Below, one piece after another: positions 1 to 10,652 of a stretch of 64,000 nt of DNA (its first letter is position 1; each line of letters begins with the position of its first letter). The DNA lies in assembly GCA_036275915.1 (NCBI GenBank), contig DASUCV010000009.1, positions 62,001 through 126,000 on the forward strand. Direction: 5' to 3'. A program made the position numbers and the translations under genes. The stretch comes from Candidatus Polarisedimenticolaceae bacterium (lineage in GTDB: Bacteria; Acidobacteriota; Polarisedimenticolia; Polarisedimenticolales; DASRJG01). The notes beneath the pieces are model-generated. The model ran no database searches, was not told the DNA's origin, and saw nothing but the letters and a program-made list of their open reading frames with translations.

Positions 1-3078
<3,078 letters not shown>

Positions 3079-3174
3079 GTGGTTTTCTCCCGGCGGGTGG
3101 ACGGTCATTCTGTTTCCCGAGCGATCTGCTCGCCGGAAGATTCTGGACCAAAAGAGGCGAGAGGGAATGAGCCT

Positions 3175-3240: not shown

Positions 3241-3924
3241 TCAGGCCGCCCGGAGGAACTGCTCAGCGACCTCCCGCCAAGCCTCGGGAGAAAGGAGCGT
3301 CGCGGGAGTGCCCGTGAGCGCGCCGCCGTCGGCGGCCGTCAGGCCGAGCCGCGCTTCAAGGAGTCGCGAGAGACGGAGGCTCTCGCCGTTCAGCCACGCC
3401 TTCGCCTCGGGCCCCTCGTGGAGACCCTTGGCGGGAGGCGCGTCGCTCTCGACGCGGAGCATCCATCCACGATGGTAGGGTTCGCGCTCGAACAGCGACG
3501 GGTGGTCGGTCAGCGCTCGGTTGCGCTCGACGATGACGCCGGCGACCGGCGACGGGATCGCGACCAGGCGGTCGCCGCAGCGGACGGCCGCGATGAGATC
3601 CCCTTCGCGGAGACGCAGGCCGATCGGAGGCAGCGCGATGCTCGAGACGCCCGCCAGGACACGCCTGGCGACGTCATCGAGGCCGACCTTCACTTGCCTG
3701 CCCCACTGCCGCTTGACCCACGCGTGCGCCGCGGTGTAGGCGACCCCCGGCTTGTAGAAGACGCCGCCGGCGTCGACCGTGCCTCTGACGCGCGCGCGCA
3801 CCGAGACTACGCCCTGCGCCGCGAAGACGATCGCGGCGACGGGGACCGCGAACGCCGCGAAGAGAAGGACGAAGAGGAGGAGACGGATGCCGAGACCGGC
3901 GAAAAACACCATCACGCTTTCCAT
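3241..3924 (-). CDS. Membrane-anchored GcvH-like protein lacking the lipoyl lysine (copy 2)
   Basis: A 227-residue protein with one N-terminal membrane helix (about 5-35) followed by a glycine-cleavage-H-like fold. Family marks are the HAWVKRQ and VGLDDVARRVLAG segments and the hairpin IPSPVAGVIVERN, which aligns with YAPVSG(E)IVEVN of true GcvH. In GcvH the lipoylated lysine lies eight residues before the proline of that hairpin; here the aligned position is Asp, so it should not be lipoylated. I chose ATG 3924 because GGAGG lies 6 bases upstream; an ATG at 3912 in a TGATG overlap is the alternative. It overlaps the upstream paralogue by 13 bp, implying coupled translation. Role unknown; context suggests an extra-membrane subunit of the HybA/HybB-like complex. 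Confidence 0.8.
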   Translation of the reverse strand: MESVMVFFAGLGIRLLLFVLLFAAFAVPVAAIVFAAQGVVSVRARVRGTVDAGGVFYKPGVAYTAAHAWVKRQWGRQVKVGLDDVARRVLAGVSSIALPPIGLRLREGDLIAAVRCGDRLVAIPSPVAGVIVERNRALTDHPSLFEREPYHRGWMLRVESDAPPAKGLHEGPEAKAWLNGESLRLSRLLEARLGLTAADGGALTGTPATLLSPEAWREVAEQFLRAA

Positions 3925-4625
3925 GACACACCTCCTCCATCGGCGAAGAAGAACTCGCTCTTGATCCGCTCCCACGCCTCGGGCGGAAGCTCGGCGGCGA
4001 ACCCCGAGACGGGAAGTCCGCCGTCGGCCAGCGCCGGTCCGAGCGTCGGCGCCACGACCCCGCGCAGGCGCTCGGCGACGTCTTCCATGAACGCGCGCGC
4101 GGTCGAGCCCGTAAGGAGCTGGCGCCCGTTGGCGGCGAGACGCGGCGCGTGCACGCGGAGAAGCCATCCGTCGCCGTACGGATCGCTCTCGACGGCGTGA
4201 AGCCGCGCCGCCGGGTTGCGCGCGACGACGAGCCCGTCGACGGGAGAGACGACGGGAAGCGAGCCCGCGGCTCCGCGCAGCGTGATCGCCGGCTCGCCCT
4301 GGCGAATGGGCGTGCCGGCCGCCGGAAGGTCGACGTCGCCGATCGGGCCGATCACCGCTCGGGCGAAGTCGTCGACGCCGACGACGACCTCGCCGTCCGT
4401 CGCGGACCGCGCCCAGGCGTGGCCCGGATGCAGCGCGACGCCGTCGGGGACGTGAAACCAACCGGTCGGCACGCGCGCCGCCCGCCGCGCCGGCTGCGCC
4501 TCGAGGGCGGGACCGCGCGGCTCCGCGAAGCGCCAGAAGGGAACGAAGAGGACGAGGAAGCCGACCGCGAGCAGGTACTCGATGGTCTTGGCGGCTTGCA
4601 GCTCGGCGAGCATCCCGTTGTTCAT
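3912..4625 (-). CDS. Membrane-anchored GcvH-like protein lacking the lipoyl lysine (copy 1)
   Basis: A 237-residue protein with an N-terminal membrane helix (about 15-33, IEYLLAVGFLVLFVPFW) and a GcvH-like domain at about 65-150 (HPGHAWAR, VGVDDFARAVIG, VSPVDGLVVARN). The residue matching the lipoyl lysine is Ala, so the usual swinging arm is absent. The C-terminus ends with a PEAWERIKSEFF segment that matches the partner's PEAWREVAEQFL, so the two are paralogues from tandem duplication. GAGGTG precedes the ATG and only 3 bp separate it from the NrfD-like gene. GcvH-like proteins normally carry aminomethyl groups; that chemistry is unlikely here. Loss of lysine in both copies argues for a structural or docking role. 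Confidence 0.8.
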   Translation of the reverse strand: MNNGMLAELQAAKTIEYLLAVGFLVLFVPFWRFAEPRGPALEAQPARRAARVPTGWFHVPDGVALHPGHAWARSATDGEVVVGVDDFARAVIGPIGDVDLPAAGTPIRQGEPAITLRGAAGSLPVVSPVDGLVVARNPAARLHAVESDPYGDGWLLRVHAPRLAANGRQLLTGSTARAFMEDVAERLRGVVAPTLGPALADGGLPVSGFAAELPPEAWERIKSEFFFADGGGVSWKA

Positions 4626-4628
4626 CGC

Positions 4629-5819
4629 TCACCTCGCGTCGGCGCCTAGGATCGGCATCCGGTTGACGATCCACCGGAAGGTCATGACCCCGAGCGTGAC
4701 GATCGTGATCGACCCGATGACTTCCATGACGCTGGGCACGTACTGGAACGGCTGCTTCCAGTTGAAGGCGATGATCGAGACGTCGACGCGGTTCAGGACG
4801 ACCCCGAGGACGGCGAGCACCGCGGCGATCCGGACGGCCTTCACGTTCCGCGTGCGCGAGCCGTACGCGAACATCAGGGAAGGGACGAGGAAGAGCCCGC
4901 CGACCTCGACGAGCCACAGCGCTCCCCAGCCGGTCGCGAGCATCGCCCACGTCCCGCTCTCGGCGAGACCCTGCAGGCGGAGGAAGACGTACGCAAAGAG
5001 GACGATCGCCGCCGCGCGCCCGAGCGTCAGCGCGATCCGGTCGACGTCGACGGGGCGTCCTGATCCCGCCCGGTCGTGGAAGATCTTGTGCGAGACGCCG
5101 CTCTCGAAGATGACCATCGCGAGACCCGCCGCGATCGAGGAGACGAAGAAGAAGACCGGGATGTACGGTGAGTACCAGAGCGGGTGGATCTTGCCGGGAG
5201 CCATGAGGAAGAGGGCGCCGAGCGACGACTGATGCAGCGTCGACAGGACGATCCCGAGCACGATCGCGCCGAGCTCGATCCGATGGAGCGCCCGGAGCGG
5301 CACCTTCCAGCCCATCCATTCGAAGAACGCAGGGAGGAACTCGAGTGCCAGGACCGTCGTGTAGAGGGCGACGCACCAGCCGACCTCGAACATCACGGAG
5401 GTCGTGCCCCACGAGTAGACGATCGGATAGGGGATCCGCCACGGCTGGCCGAGATCGCAGAGGAGGCCGATCACGGCGAACACGTAGCCCAGGAACCCGG
5501 TCAGGATCGCCGCGCGGACGACCGGCTTGAGCTCTCGGAAGCCGAACATGTAGACCGCCGCGGCCAAGGTGTAGCCGCCCGCCGCGAGTGCGACCCCGCA
5601 GAGCATGTCGAAGCCGATCCAGAGTCCCCACGGCGTCGCCTGCGAGAGGTGGGTCGCCGCCCCGAGCCCGAAGGCGAAGCGGTAGACGATCACCGGGATC
5701 CCGATCGCCAGGATCAGCGCGAACGTCAGGTCGACGGCGTTCAGGTGCCGCCGCGCGTACGCCTTCCACCCCGTTCCGAGGAAGAGACGTCCCGCGAGGG
5801 TCGTCGTGGCCTCATTCAT
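4629..5819 (-). CDS. NrfD/HybB-family integral membrane quinone-interacting subunit
   Basis: A 396-residue polytopic membrane protein with about ten hydrophobic segments. It resembles HybB, the cytochrome-less membrane subunit of hydrogenase-2, and the wider NrfD/PsrC family, which passes electrons between a membrane quinone and a periplasmic Fe-S partner. Visible family features are the early TPWGLWIGFDM segment and the GxPWRIPYPIVYSWGTTS loop. It overlaps the HybA-like gene by 8 bp, the usual pairing for these two subunits. No hydrogenase large or small subunit is present, so the electron donor or acceptor differs from hydrogenase-2. Confidence 0.88.
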   Translation of the reverse strand: MNEATTTLAGRLFLGTGWKAYARRHLNAVDLTFALILAIGIPVIVYRFAFGLGAATHLSQATPWGLWIGFDMLCGVALAAGGYTLAAAVYMFGFRELKPVVRAAILTGFLGYVFAVIGLLCDLGQPWRIPYPIVYSWGTTSVMFEVGWCVALYTTVLALEFLPAFFEWMGWKVPLRALHRIELGAIVLGIVLSTLHQSSLGALFLMAPGKIHPLWYSPYIPVFFFVSSIAAGLAMVIFESGVSHKIFHDRAGSGRPVDVDRIALTLGRAAAIVLFAYVFLRLQGLAESGTWAMLATGWGALWLVEVGGLFLVPSLMFAYGSRTRNVKAVRIAAVLAVLGVVLNRVDVSIIAFNWKQPFQYVPSVMEVIGSITIVTLGVMTFRWIVNRMPILGADAR

Positions 5820-6681
5820 GGTCGTTCTCCTCGTCGCGGCGCCGGCTGGCGGTGTAGAGGCCCATGAGGAGCGGGGGCCAGAGGGTGATCACGAACGGGA
5901 CCGCGCCGAGCGCGCCCCGCGTCTTGTCGAAGCGCGTTTCGTCGCCGACGTCCCTCGGGAGGCCGAAGTCCGAGAGCGGCCGGTCGGCGATATACATCCA
6001 CGACGTGCCGCCGGCGTCGTGCTCGCCGAAGATCTCCGGAACGTACGTCGAGCCGGGCGCGTAGATCCGGCGCTTCGCCTCGGCGAGCAGCTCGCTGCGC
6101 TTGCCGAAGGTGAGCGCCTCCGCGGGGCAGTTCTCGACGCAGGCGGGCTTCCCGCCCTTGGCCAGCCGGGTGGCGCACATCGTGCACTTCCTCACGTAGG
6201 GAATCGCGCGGTCGTACTGGTACTTCGGCACGTCGAACGGGCAGGCGACCATGCAGTACCGGCACCCGATGCAGCGGTCCTCGTGGTACACGACGGGGCC
6301 GGCTTCCGTCTTGTCGAGGGCCTTCACCGGACACGCCGACGCGCACGCCGGGACGAGGCAATGGAGGCACTGCGATTTCGCATAGCGGTCCTCTCCCCCG
6401 CCCTGCGCCTTGTTGACGACAGTGAACTGGCCGGGGGACGTCGTGCGGTGCGTCGCGAAGATCGCGTCGTCGCCCATCGCCTCGGGCGCGGCGAGGCCGT
6501 TGGCCTCGGCGCACGCCGCTTCGCAGGTGCGGCAACCCAGGCACTTCGTCGTGTCGACGAGAACGCCGGCCCCGTCGGGCACGGGAGCCGTCTCGCGCGC
6601 GGACGCCGGCAGAGCGCTCGCGGCGCCTGCCGCGCCGATCGCGGCGCAGCTCTTGAGGAACGTCCTGCGGGCGATGCGCAT
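5812..6681 (-). CDS. HybA-like periplasmic 4Fe-4S ferredoxin subunit with Tat signal and C-terminal anchor
   Basis: A 289-residue protein. It begins with a twin-arginine signal (RRTFLKS, residues 5-11) and so folds before export. Four cysteine clusters follow: CLGCRTCEAAC; CLHCLVPACASACP; CIGCRYCMVACP; and a split fourth one, CTMC...CVENCP. This is the pattern of four 4Fe-4S centres seen in HybA and related electron-wire subunits. A C-terminal hydrophobic stretch (about 255-275, VPFVITLWPPLLMGLY) should anchor it beside the NrfD/HybB subunit, whose gene overlaps the end. Role by family: transfer of electrons between the membrane quinone site and a periplasmic partner. Confidence 0.9.
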   Translation of the reverse strand: MRIARRTFLKSCAAIGAAGAASALPASARETAPVPDGAGVLVDTTKCLGCRTCEAACAEANGLAAPEAMGDDAIFATHRTTSPGQFTVVNKAQGGGEDRYAKSQCLHCLVPACASACPVKALDKTEAGPVVYHEDRCIGCRYCMVACPFDVPKYQYDRAIPYVRKCTMCATRLAKGGKPACVENCPAEALTFGKRSELLAEAKRRIYAPGSTYVPEIFGEHDAGGTSWMYIADRPLSDFGLPRDVGDETRFDKTRGALGAVPFVITLWPPLLMGLYTASRRRDEENDHE

Positions 6682-6685
6682 CGCC

Positions 6686-6772
6686 TCACCTCACCCGCGC
6701 GGGGCGCGTCGCCCACCAGCAGAAGGCGACGAGGACGAGTCCCATCCACCAGAATGCGGCTGCGAGGATCAT
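6686..6772 (-). CDS. 28-residue single-span membrane peptide
   Basis: A very short gene (MILAAAFWWMGLVLVAFCWW, then a basic tail ATRPARVR). It is one Trp-rich transmembrane helix followed by a cytoplasmic-type positive tail. Support for it being real: GGAGG lies 7 bases upstream, its ATG overlaps the preceding stop as ATGA (6769-6772), and only 4 bp separate it from the HybA-like gene. Small single-helix subunits stabilise many respiratory complexes, so an accessory subunit of this complex is plausible. No family recognised. Confidence 0.65.
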   Translation of the reverse strand: MILAAAFWWMGLVLVAFCWWATRPARVR

Positions 6773-6975
6773 GGCCTGGCCTCCGTTTCTCGAACCGACG
6801 CGAGACGCGCGATCTCCCGGTACAGCGGGCACGACGCGTAGTCCGACGACGAGCACGGACCGAGCGAGACGACCTGATTGCGCGGGAGGAGCTTGTGCTG
6901 AGGGCAAGCGTCGCAGTACAGCATCACGACTTCCCTCAGGAAGGGGCAGGGCGTCTGATCGTTCGTGAGCTTCAT
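6769..6975 (-). CDS. Small cysteine-rich protein, first gene of the redox operon
   Basis: A 68-residue soluble protein with five cysteines at 10, 21, 24, 41 and 49 (TPCPF, YCDACP, GPCSS, ASCPLY). The CxxC at 21-24 and spaced outer cysteines suggest a zinc or Fe-S site; I do not recognise the family. The ATG at 6975 lacks a Shine-Dalgarno sequence and lies only about 5 bases after the start predicted from the sigma-54 element, so translation may be nearly leaderless. Its stop overlaps the next start. As the promoter-proximal gene it could be a subunit, an assembly factor or a redox-responsive regulator of the complex. Confidence 0.7.
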   Translation of the reverse strand: MKLTNDQTPCPFLREVVMLYCDACPQHKLLPRNQVVSLGPCSSSDYASCPLYREIARLASVRETEARP

Positions 6976-7147: not shown

Positions 7148-8521
7148 TCAACGGCGGGCGATCGGCTCCGGGTCGTCCTCCCGCCTGAGGTCGTACTTGC
7201 GGATCTTCGCGTAGAGCGTCGCGCGATCGATGTCGAGGACGCGCGCCGCCTGCGAGACGTTGCCGCCGGTCTGGCGGAGCATCGCGGCGATGTGACGCCG
7301 CTCGACATCCTCCAGGGACAGCGGCTTCCCAGTCCCCTCTCCGGCGTCGAACGGGCCCAGATGCTCGGGCCTCAAGACCGTTCCCGACGCGAGCACGATC
7401 GCACGCTCGAGGACGTTGCGGAGCTCGCGCACGTTCCCCGGCCAGTCGTGCGCGAGGAGGTGGGACATCGCCTCCTCCGAGACCCCCTCGACCGCCTTCC
7501 CGGTCTCGATCGCCAGGTGCTCGACGAGGTGGGCGACGAGGAGCGGGATGTCCTCCTTCCGCTCGCGCAGGGGCGGGAGGGTCAGCGGGATGACGTTCAA
7601 TCGGTAGTAGAGGTCCTGGCGGAAGGCTCCGTCGCGGATCGCGCGGGGGAGGTCGCGGTTCGTCGCCGCAACGACGCGCACGTCGACCGGAATGGCGACG
7701 GTGCCGCCGACCCGCGTGATCTTGCGCTCCTCGAGGACGCGCAGGAGATCGATCTGGAGCTTCGGGCCGATGTCGCCGATCTCGTCGAGGAAGAGCGTGC
7801 CCCCGCCGGCCGCCTCGAACTTCCCCTGGTGGCGGTCGACGGCACCGGTGAACGCACCTCGCTCGTGACCGAACAGCTCGGACTCGAGGAGCGTCTCGGT
7901 GAGCGCGGCGCACGAGACGGCGACGAACGGCTTGGCCGCGCGCAGGCTCTCGGCGTGGATCGCGCGGGCGAGGAGGTCCTTCCCGGTGCCGCTCTCGCCG
8001 AGGATGAGGACGGTCGAGCCGCTCTTCGCCGCGGCCCGCGCCAGCTCAAAGACCGCCTGCATCGCCGGCGATTTGCTCACGAGGTCACGGAAGGTGTAGC
8101 CGCGCTTCAAGACCTTCCGGAGGATGAGGTTCTCCCGCCGGAGCGACTGCTGCGCGACGATCTTTTCGACCATGAGCGAGAGCTCCTCGGGGTCGAACGG
8201 CTTCATGAGGTAGTCGTAGGCGCCCAGCTTCATCGCGCGTACCGCGGTGTCGACGGTGGCGTACGCGGTCATGATCACGGCCGCGGCGGCGGGACGGATC
8301 GTGCGCGCCTCTTCGAGGACCTGGAGTCCGTCCATCGGTGTCATCTTCAGGTCGAGGAGGATCACCGACCACGAGTCCTCGCCGCGGAGCATCGCGAGCG
8401 CGGTGGGCCCGTCGGCCGCCGCCGCGACGGTGTAGCCGTCCTTTCTGAGCCAGCTCGTGAGCGACTCGCGGACGATCTCCTCGTCGTCGACGACCAGGAT
8501 TCGAACGGCTTTCCGGCTCAT
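7148..8521 (-). CDS. NtrC-family sigma-54-dependent response regulator
   Basis: A 457-residue regulator. Receiver domain 5-120 with phosphoacceptor Asp57 in VILLDLKM and switch lysine in LMKPFD. AAA+ domain about 145-385 with Walker A GESGTGKD (175-182), the sigma-54 contact loop GAFTGA (222-227) and Walker B GGTLFLDEIGD. C-terminal Fis-type helix-turn-helix (LEDVERRHI ... NVSQAARVLDIDRATLYAKI). It activates RNA polymerase carrying sigma-54 once phosphorylated. It is last in the operon with the sensor kinase and the archaemetzincin gene (4 bp upstream). The nearest sigma-54 promoter is directly downstream at 6991-7006, so the membrane redox operon is its probable target. Confidence 0.93.
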   Translation of the reverse strand: MSRKAVRILVVDDEEIVRESLTSWLRKDGYTVAAAADGPTALAMLRGEDSWSVILLDLKMTPMDGLQVLEEARTIRPAAAAVIMTAYATVDTAVRAMKLGAYDYLMKPFDPEELSLMVEKIVAQQSLRRENLILRKVLKRGYTFRDLVSKSPAMQAVFELARAAAKSGSTVLILGESGTGKDLLARAIHAESLRAAKPFVAVSCAALTETLLESELFGHERGAFTGAVDRHQGKFEAAGGGTLFLDEIGDIGPKLQIDLLRVLEERKITRVGGTVAIPVDVRVVAATNRDLPRAIRDGAFRQDLYYRLNVIPLTLPPLRERKEDIPLLVAHLVEHLAIETGKAVEGVSEEAMSHLLAHDWPGNVRELRNVLERAIVLASGTVLRPEHLGPFDAGEGTGKPLSLEDVERRHIAAMLRQTGGNVSQAARVLDIDRATLYAKIRKYDLRREDDPEPIARR

Positions 8522-8525
8522 GCCA

Positions 8526-9053
8526 TCACCTCCCGTGGCGGCGCGACTCGTCGTAGAGCAGTCGGCAGTCCCGGCAGAACGTCTCGCCCTTGACGTCGAT
8601 CTCCCGGACGCCCGGCGAGCGCGCCATCACGCACCCCGGGCTCCCGCAGTGCACGAGACCGTAGACGTGTCCCAGCTCGTGCAGCGACTCCTTCCGCAGG
8701 CGCTCCGCGAGACGTCCCGGCTCCCGCGCCGCGAGGCGCGCCGTCGAGACGACCGCCGCGCGGCCCGCCAGCTGCGCCTCGCCGAAGACGAAGGTCAGGA
8801 TCGGAATGAAGAGATCGACGTCGGTGATCCCGATCACCTTGGCCGCCTCGGGATGCCTGGTCCCGAGCCACTCGAGGATCGCCCCCGAGTCGTACTGGCC
8901 GCGTCGCGGATCGCGCGCCACGCGGGGACGCTCCGGCTCGAAGCCGAGACGGACGCGCTGACGCAGCTCCAGATGGAGGTGCCGGACGAGCGGATCGCAG
9001 AGACCCGGCCCGGGGTCGCCCTCCCCGATCCAGCAGGCGACGACGCCGTCCAT
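8526..9053 (-). CDS. amzA: Archaemetzincin-type zinc metalloprotease
   Basis: A 175-residue protein carrying the full archaemetzincin signature: HELGHVYGLVH (125-135, three zinc-binding histidines and catalytic Glu126), then C136, C141, M143 (the Met-turn) and the distal pair C160-x2-C163, which bind a second structural zinc. The length fits the family (about 160-200). Substrates of bacterial members are unknown. It sits between the sensor kinase (3 bp upstream) and the response regulator (4 bp downstream), so all three should be made together. That placement is unusual for the family and suggests proteolysis linked to this signalling pathway. Confidence 0.93.
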   Translation of the reverse strand: MDGVVACWIGEGDPGPGLCDPLVRHLHLELRQRVRLGFEPERPRVARDPRRGQYDSGAILEWLGTRHPEAAKVIGITDVDLFIPILTFVFGEAQLAGRAAVVSTARLAAREPGRLAERLRKESLHELGHVYGLVHCGSPGCVMARSPGVREIDVKGETFCRDCRLLYDESRRHGR

Positions 9054-9056
9054 CGC

Positions 9057-10652
9057 TCACGCCACCCGCGCTCCGACGGGGACGAGGGGCAGGCGGATGC
9101 GCACCGTCGTTCCCAGACCGGGCTTGCTCGCGATCTCGAACTGGCCGCCGAGGTTCTCCACGATCCCGTAGACGACCGAGAGGCCGAGACCCGTCCCCTT
9201 CTCCTTCGTCGTGAAGAACGGATCGAAGATCCTGTCGAGATGCTCGGCGTCGATGCCGCTTCCTTGATCCGAGATCACGACGACCGCGTCGCGACCGTCC
9301 GGATCGCCCTCGGGCCGGATCCGGATGACGCCGCCTTTCGACGAGGCCTCGATCGCGTTGACGAGGACGTTGACGAACGCCTGGCGCAAGCGGCCGAAAT
9401 CCGCCTTCACGATCGGGTGCGGCTCGAACGCGAAGTCGATCGTCAGGCCCTGCATCTCGGCCTGGTGCGTCACCAGGTGCACCGATTCTTCCAGGACGGC
9501 GCGGACGTCGATCTCGCGGAGGTCGAGCGGGCGCTGGCGCGCGAAGTCGAGGAGGTTGCGCACGATCGCGCTGCAGCGCTCGGTCTCGCGCTGGACGAGC
9601 CTCAGACGGGCGAGCGCCTCGCCGCGTGTCTGCTGATCGATCGTCTCCTGGTCGAGATCGCGGACGAGCAGCTTCGAGAACGTCAGGATGCCGGCGAGCG
9701 GGTTGTTGATCTCGTGGGCGATCGACGCCGATAGCTTGCCGAGCGACGCGAGCTTCTCTCCTTGAAGGAGCTGGGCGTGGGCCTGTTTGAGCGCCGCCGT
9801 GCGCTCCTCGACCTGGCGCTCGAGCCCGCCCAGCAGGCCGTCGATCTCGGCACGGGCGTCCCGCAGCGAGAGGCGCATCCCGTCGAACGACGTGGCGAGC
9901 GCTCCCAGCTCGTCGTCGGTGCGCGGGTGGACCGGTTTGTCGAGGTTGCCGCTCCCGATCTCCTGCGTCGCGCGCACGAGCGCCTTCACCGGCTTCACGA
10001 TGAAGCGCCGGCTCACCTGCAGGATCACGCCGACGAGGAGGAACGTCAGCAAGATCCCGACGCCGAGCGTCTTGAAGCGGAGCGCGGCGATCTCCTCGTC
10101 CATGCCGCGGAGCGAGACGCCGAGGTCCACGATCCCGAGGATCGGCTGCTCGGCCGTCGTCGCATGACAGGCCTGACCGGCGCAGGCGGGCTCGTTCCTG
10201 ATCGGCGTCATGAAGCCGAGGACGCGGTGGTCGCCCGAGCGCACGATGCGCGCCCGCGCCGCCTCGTCGAGCGCCGCGAGCGGCTTCGGCCCGGCGTGGC
10301 ACGAGGCGCAGAAGTCGGTCGCTCGAGGGAGCGTCGTTCCGATCTCCGCGGGGTCGGTCGAGAAGGTGATCCGCCCTTCCTTATTGATGAGGCGCACCTT
10401 GTCGATGCGGGGCAGGCCGCCGATCTCGCGGATGACCTGGTACGCCTCGTCCTTCCGCGCCCGCAGCATCTGGTCGTGCGTCGCGCGGGTGATGCTGTCG
10501 CCGAAGAGCGCGGCGCCGTCGATCGCCTGCGCGATGAGGTGGCGCTCCTGCTCTCTCACTCCCAAGACGACCGCGATCGAGATGGCGCCGAACGTCGTCG
10601 CTGCGACGAGCGCCGTCAGACGCGTTCCGATGCGGCGGTGCCATGGGACCAT
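9057..10652 (-). CDS. Sensor histidine kinase with periplasmic c-type heme motifs
   Basis: A 531-residue membrane kinase. Membrane helix 1 at about 12-31 and helix 2 at about 194-214 flank a periplasmic sensor of about 160 residues. The sensor holds CASCH (115-119, a classic CxxCH heme attachment site) and CAGQACH (157-163, CxxxxCH spacing). HAMP follows at about 215-268, then a coiled coil, HisKA with His313 in AHEINNPLAG, and HATPase (NVLVNAIEAS, DQGSGI, GTGLGLSVVYG). Covalent heme would let it sense redox state or a gas such as oxygen or NO. It is first in the operon with amzA and the NtrC-type regulator, its likely partner. CxxxxCH is a less common heme motif, so the second site is less certain. 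Confidence 0.92.
   Translation of the reverse strand: MVPWHRRIGTRLTALVAATTFGAISIAVVLGVREQERHLIAQAIDGAALFGDSITRATHDQMLRARKDEAYQVIREIGGLPRIDKVRLINKEGRITFSTDPAEIGTTLPRATDFCASCHAGPKPLAALDEAARARIVRSGDHRVLGFMTPIRNEPACAGQACHATTAEQPILGIVDLGVSLRGMDEEIAALRFKTLGVGILLTFLLVGVILQVSRRFIVKPVKALVRATQEIGSGNLDKPVHPRTDDELGALATSFDGMRLSLRDARAEIDGLLGGLERQVEERTAALKQAHAQLLQGEKLASLGKLSASIAHEINNPLAGILTFSKLLVRDLDQETIDQQTRGEALARLRLVQRETERCSAIVRNLLDFARQRPLDLREIDVRAVLEESVHLVTHQAEMQGLTIDFAFEPHPIVKADFGRLRQAFVNVLVNAIEASSKGGVIRIRPEGDPDGRDAVVVISDQGSGIDAEHLDRIFDPFFTTKEKGTGLGLSVVYGIVENLGGQFEIASKPGLGTTVRIRLPLVPVGARVA

Follow-up and report, generated by a model that had tools for sequence, protein, structure and literature searches.

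Glycine cleavage H protein (GcvH) visits its partner enzymes by swinging a lipoyl arm, and in the hmc operon of Desulfovibrio HmcD comes after HmcC. Lipoylation at a GcvH-type site requires the lysine found there, and this residue is strictly conserved in LbpA, the GcvH-fold protein of Hdr-like sulfur oxidation (PMC6067878). Exchange of electrons between periplasmic carriers and menaquinone has been shown for Qrc, a relative of Hmc, and proposed for Hmc itself, although a 2018 paper still regarded the direction in which electrons pass through Hmc as uncertain (PMC6303296). The open-access literature that we searched contained no description of a lysine-less GcvH family or of the module reported here, and nothing on GcvH with NrfD, on archaemetzincin with a histidine kinase, or on GcvH as a response-regulator output. 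Here we describe two such lysine-less proteins encoded in a 64,000-nucleotide stretch of DNA (the window), together with their wider family and the conserved genes that accompany it.

Two GcvH-like proteins without the lipoyl lysine

The two genes lie in tandem, the last 13 bp of gene a also forming the start of gene b, and gene a starts 3 bp past the end of an HmcC/NrfD-like gene:

3912..4625, minus strand: GcvH-like protein a (P0002), 237 aa, with an HmcD-like N-terminal anchor, a GcvH-fold domain and a C-terminal extension with a DGG motif
3241..3924, minus strand: GcvH-like protein b (P0001), 227 aa, with an N-terminal anchor, a GcvH-fold domain and a C-terminal extension

The open reading frame coordinates, matches to Pfam GCV_H (E 2.7e-14 for P0002 and 4.7e-20 for P0001) and the modelled helices confirm the initial, sequence-only reading of this DNA as encoding two tandem membrane-anchored GcvH-like proteins. 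Both score far under the cut-off of the NCBIfam gcvH equivalog (TIGR00527; 50.7 and 59.0 bits against 115.85). AlphaFold models of the two proteins, with mean pLDDT of 84 for P0002 and 86 for P0001 and of about 95 in the GcvH domain blocks, place an N-terminal helix before the GcvH domain and a helical extension after it. Loci retrieved by genome search did not enter these predictions, whose alignments therefore contain few genuine members of the family, with five sequences covering the extension. The N-terminal helix is hydrophobic and spans residues 3-34 in P0002 and 2-25 in P0001, in agreement with the anchor first assigned to each protein. Foldseek returned 22 matches per protein at E <= 0.001, and the sole confident matches were solved GcvH or GcvH-like structures, with a TM to target of 0.81-0.90 for most hits.

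Alignment of P0002 and P0001 with three true GcvH placed the lipoyl column at alanine in the former and aspartate in the latter, the same two residues that the sequence-only reading had named:

4266..4268, minus strand: codon of Ala120 of P0002, at the lipoyl-lysine position by sequence alignment
3571..3573, minus strand: codon of Asp118 of P0001, at the lipoyl-lysine position by sequence alignment

In the models these residues sit in the turn that joins both hairpin strands (112-118 and 121-127 in P0002, 110-116 and 119-124 in P0001), which is where GcvH carries its lipoylated lysine. The hairpin had been described as following that lysine; the lysine is instead found at the hairpin tip. Foldseek gives no residue-level superposition, and the assignment of the lipoyl site therefore rests on the sequence alignment combined with the modelled strand positions. 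When the predicted structures were set against GcvH, the models matched it and no other lysine was found at the lipoyl site. Lysines occur in P0002 only at positions 13, 222 and 236, which leaves its GcvH domain without any, and in P0001 only at positions 58, 71, 79, 166 and 175, none of them close to the hairpin. Lipoylation at a shifted lysine was rejected for want of a suitable residue. A separate, lysine-bearing GcvH with an intact ESVKA motif is encoded in the same genome.

The lysine-less proteins form a family

Relatives were searched for with P0002 as query and then with a 23-sequence alignment. They turned up in the phylum of the window itself and, beyond it, in 65 of 247 genomes from the phylum of a Thermodesulfobacteriota record and in 30 of 247 from that of a Bacteroidetes record. 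From the window phylum, Thermodesulfobacteriota and Bacteroidota we assembled a family set of 153 distinct domains with the same C-terminal extension, and 144 of them have no lysine in the lipoyl column. The remaining nine have a lysine at the aligned column without the ES[V/T]K motif, in contexts such as SGKR. Glycine is the commonest residue in the column (72 domains), and the residue after it is most often arginine or lysine (85 domains). Among domains lacking the extension, lysine is kept in 94 of 112, and most of the others are fusions or relatives of the family. In a FastTree phylogeny of the core domain, a branch with support of 0.79 set the 60 true GcvH sampled apart from the family, none of them falling on the family side; three sequences were ambiguous in this split. 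Invariant positions of the family include GcvH fold residues and a glycine of the DGG motif in the extension. The idea that the fold was recruited for a non-lipoyl role, first raised for the two window proteins, is thus supported well outside the window. Pseudogene formation or local decay of P0002 and P0001 was rejected on the basis of the family-wide conservation.

A conserved gene module with an Hmc-type complex

The genes from HmcB-like to kinase lie upstream of P0002 and P0001 on the same strand:

4629..5819, minus strand: HmcC-like NrfD-family membrane subunit, quinone-interacting by family (NrfD, E 5.1e-18; HmcC NF045714, 477 bits, cut-off 550)
5812..6681, minus strand: HmcB-like 4x[4Fe-4S] protein, Tat-exported and hydrophobic in a segment at its C-terminus (HmcB NF045715, 337 bits, cut-off 420)
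6769..6975, minus strand: small Cys-rich protein, CPFL..YC..C..C..CPLY, no Pfam family
7148..8521, minus strand: NtrC-type sigma-54 response regulator
8526..9053, minus strand: archaemetzincin (peptidase M54) with an HExxHxxGxxHC motif (PF07998, E 3.2e-20; NF033823, 141 bits, cut-off 145)
9057..10652, minus strand: histidine kinase with HAMP, HisKA and HATPase domains, whose sensor region has the heme-c motifs CXXCH and CX4CH

The HmcB-like protein has RRTFLK near its N-terminus, and most HmcB homologues have 16-18 cysteines, which fits four [4Fe-4S] clusters. HmcB and HmcC are by far the best NCBIfam matches of the pair, though under the cut-offs, and they outscore HybA and HybB by 337 to 229 bits and 477 to 269 bits. 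No solved structure was found for HmcC by phmmer at 0.001. The sequence-only reading had linked the GcvH-like proteins to a HybA/HybB complex; a tie to the neighbouring complex is supported, as at 63 of 65 loci the nearest GcvH-like gene shares the strand of HmcB/HmcC, with a median gap of 108 bp, but HmcB/HmcC is the better identification. Of 51 archaemetzincin homologues 48 have an intact motif, and CXXCH and CX3-5CH motifs occur together in the sensor of 43 of 46 kinase homologues. Across several phyla, the archaemetzincin is tightly linked to the heme-sensor kinase and the sigma-54 regulator.

To count module genes we compared 89 retrieved family loci, each 9 kb or longer, with 66 true-GcvH loci. 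HmcC and HmcB each occur in 62 of the family loci, the response regulator in 53, archaemetzincin in 47 and the kinase in 41, and none of the five was found in any true-GcvH locus; the control loci have shorter flanks and come from other taxa, the family loci are partly non-independent and some of them supplied the profiles, and the contrast is too large to come from such flank, taxon or sampling differences. That the family is non-lipoylated and module-associated is well supported. Fourteen of the 89 loci contain no module gene apart from the GcvH-like one, which means that some copies work with no complex encoded beside them, and some loci have kinase, regulator and archaemetzincin without HmcBC, which fits a signalling role as well.

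Cytochrome candidates are found at a part of the related loci. An ORF with 3-13 CXXCH motifs lies near HmcC on the same strand in 22 of 65, and the two such neighbours that were tested match class III/c7 cytochromes. In the version of the module with receiver-GcvH fusions (below), HmcB/HmcC adjoin ORFs about 390 aa long that contain 13 CXXCH motifs:

L243:4916-6091, L244:13161-14303, L245:4898-6082 and L246:5239-6420: ORFs with 13 CXXCH motifs

Directly downstream of the window genes, on the same strand, is a NifJ-like pyruvate:ferredoxin oxidoreductase gene (1-3108, minus strand). No functional tie to it was found; the gene does not recur beside the module in those relatives that were examined, and a search of the related loci at E 1e-200 gave no second NifJ.

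Anchor type and topology

The anchor motif (T)KG-EYL...F(W)R/K marks one sub-type of the family, which includes P0002. HmcD was matched in nearly the same register by eight of nine proteins of this anchor type, P0002 among them (E 0.074 to 2.8e-7), the P0002 anchor alone giving a weak match (E 0.0028) and all anchor matches lying under the 34-bit cut-off. One relative of the P0002 anchor type and the other anchor type, which served as a negative control, did not match HmcD. P0002 directly follows the HmcC-like gene, as HmcD does in the hmc operon. It is strongly indicated, with matches below cut-off, that protein a consists of an HmcD-like anchor joined to a GcvH domain and encoded right behind HmcC.

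Of 92 anchored members, 84 have more lysine and arginine on the C-terminal, GcvH-side flank of the anchor than on the other. The positive-inside rule then predicts a cytoplasmic GcvH domain, across the membrane from the Tat-exported HmcB, and the fusion partners described below agree, receiver, HdrA and MvhD domains being cytoplasmic families. A cytoplasmic orientation of the GcvH domain in anchored members is thus strongly indicated as a prediction from sequence. The N-terminal domain of a long fusion at locus L002 had no Pfam match and no convincing match to a solved structure and so could not be used for topology.

Domain fusions and Cys-rich partners

At several loci a GcvH-like domain, mostly lysine-less, stands behind a receiver (REC) domain in place of the DNA-binding output domain of a response regulator, and these genes adjoin HmcB-HmcC-kinase genes. 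Elsewhere the domain forms the C-terminus of Hdr-related electron carriers:

L176:8920-10053, L194:9434-11191, L195:9751-11217, L126:7925-9280, L177:8411-10027 and L243-L247: REC-GcvH fusions
L229:7136-10099 and L230:9607-12537: GcvH-like domain at the C-terminus of HdrA-like/MvhD(FlpD) proteins
L231:7708-11157: GcvH-like domain at the C-terminus of an HdrA-like FAD/4Fe-4S flavoprotein

Two of the three HdrA-like fusions also have a molybdopterin-dinucleotide-binding-like domain.

The CPFL..CPLY Cys-rich motif occurs N-terminal to the GcvH-like domain at L175, L181-183 and L189, and as a separate gene before HmcB in the window (6769-6975, minus strand) and at L171, L180, L186 and L187. This small domain may bind a metal or an Fe-S cluster. 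A second four-Cys motif, C-x2-W-M-x-A-G-...-Y-K-L-C-D-...-C-x2-C-x-L-D, is found at the N-terminus of soluble GcvH-like proteins of the same module:

L114:7697-8410, L116:8486-9217, L121:11110-11880 and L122:11574-12323: proteins with the second four-Cys motif

A proposed docking role and its alternatives

Taken together, the data lead us to favor, with somewhat better than even confidence, P0002 and P0001 as cofactor-free, membrane-anchored accessory docking subunits of an Hmc-type quinone oxidoreductase formed by HmcB and HmcC. Both proteins would be members of the HmcBC complex, with the lysine-less GcvH domain as their docking surface. Without a lipoyl arm, the GcvH-like subunits have only a surface to offer, and since this surface is elsewhere fused to a receiver, an electron-bifurcation protein or a Cys-rich domain, a docking module is the simplest reading. 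In such an arrangement, the partner-binding body of GcvH alone would have been retained and would keep soluble proteins of redox metabolism or signalling close to the complex on its cytoplasmic side. The complex itself would pass electrons between periplasmic cytochromes and menaquinone, a flow that the heme kinase would sense in order to set expression through the sigma-54 regulator. Lineages differ in the fusion partner of this domain, which is a receiver domain in some and an HdrA/MvhD-like electron carrier in others. The family travels with a respiratory electron-transfer complex, a heme-sensing kinase and a metalloprotease in several phyla, and the GcvH carrier fold has thus apparently been put to new use as a connector without a cofactor.

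A broader proposal, which we offer tentatively, is that the cofactor-free GcvH domain is a common plug coupling HmcBC to the heme-sensing two-component system, making up a new energy-and-signalling system in several phyla in which receiver phosphorylation would act on the complex directly through REC-GcvH and not on DNA.

The GcvH-like proteins might instead work primarily in the phosphorelay, where they would sense the heme kinase and regulator or adjust their activity, with HmcBC as redox input or target. The replacement of a response-regulator output by the GcvH-like domain directly beside HmcB-HmcC-kinase genes would suit this, as would the several loci that keep kinase, regulator, archaemetzincin and GcvH-like genes without HmcBC. 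We nonetheless think it unlikely: 20 of the 89 loci have HmcBC and a GcvH-like gene with kinase and regulator not above threshold (some of these being cut by contig ends or having a shorter REC-GcvH regulator), one sub-type has the HmcD-like anchor, and the HdrA-like fusions have no signalling domain.

Rather improbable, in our estimate, is a purely structural or assembly role, in which the domain braces the membrane subunit of HmcBC and binds nothing else. Adjacency and same-strand order with HmcB/HmcC, the HmcD-like anchor and the absent cofactor site would all be expected of such a subunit, but the receiver-domain and HdrA fusions would be left unexplained, as would the Cys-rich N-terminal domains and the soluble, anchor-less members of the same operons. 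The wider module, these fusions, the anchor and the C-terminal extension favor a connector. Of the "structural or docking part" suggested at first, the link to the complex is supported and the purely structural sense is less likely than the docking one.

It is very improbable that P0002 and P0001 continue to serve as lipoyl or octanoyl carriers through acylation of a different lysine. The nine relatives with a lysine at the aligned column could be taken as a hint, but these exceptions lack the ES[V/T]K motif, lipoylation there needs that lysine (PMC6067878), and the P0002 domain has no lysine and P0001 none near the hairpin. Degenerate GcvH paralogues heading for loss might explain the variable lipoyl-position residues (G, S, D, A, N, E) but are hardly credible given full-length intact frames, invariant fold residues and the DGG extension in 153 sequences from several phyla, and a conserved operon.

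Implications

Many GCV_H proteins of these phyla are probably named glycine cleavage H protein though they are not lipoylatable, and pathway predictions built on that name would be wrong. The family marks a conserved, uncharacterised redox module common to several anaerobe-rich phyla, in which a lipoyl-carrier fold is reused without its cofactor, also in place of a response-regulator output domain. It offers a testable route to the role of Hmc-type complexes.

Comparison with known systems

The window proteins share with GcvH (TIGR00527, PF01597) the domain fold (TM to target up to 0.90) and the HxW, VG, PxxG and PYGxGW elements. Unlike GcvH, they lack the lipoyl lysine and ES[V/T]K motif, have a membrane anchor and a C-terminal extension of about 60 residues, and are found in a respiratory and signalling gene context. 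Streptococcus GcvH-L (PDB 5a35) is likewise a GcvH-like fold outside glycine cleavage; its gene context differs from that of the window proteins, and it is the weakest confident GcvH-fold match (TM to target 0.70-0.79).

The Desulfovibrio GcvH-related protein (NF045810) also has the GcvH fold, and its member at L255 likewise lacks the lysine (FAITGKILYLDAPLTG). The window proteins score 24.6 and 32.4 bits with the NF045810 profile, against a cut-off of 150. In contrast to the window genes, the L255 member (L255:656-1282) stands directly before a thioredoxin-reductase-like gene. LbpA of Hdr-like sulfur oxidation (PMC6067878) is similar in being a GcvH-fold protein on a redox system, often in two copies and Hdr-related, and differs in that the window proteins have Ala120 and Asp118 in place of the lipoyl lysine. 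The module genes, which were identified within the first 11 kb of the window, include neither hdr-like nor lipoate ligase genes, though some distant members of the family are fused to HdrA-like proteins.

The Desulfovibrio Hmc complex (HmcABCDEF) resembles the module in gene order: the HmcB-like and HmcC-like genes are arranged as in hmc, and next comes the gene of P0002 with its HmcD-like anchor, although all three matches score under their cut-offs. No counterpart of the 16-heme HmcA was seen in the window, which has no ORF with more than two CXXCH motifs. HmcD has no GcvH domain, and to the Hmc plan the window module adds this domain, a kinase, a regulator and an archaemetzincin.
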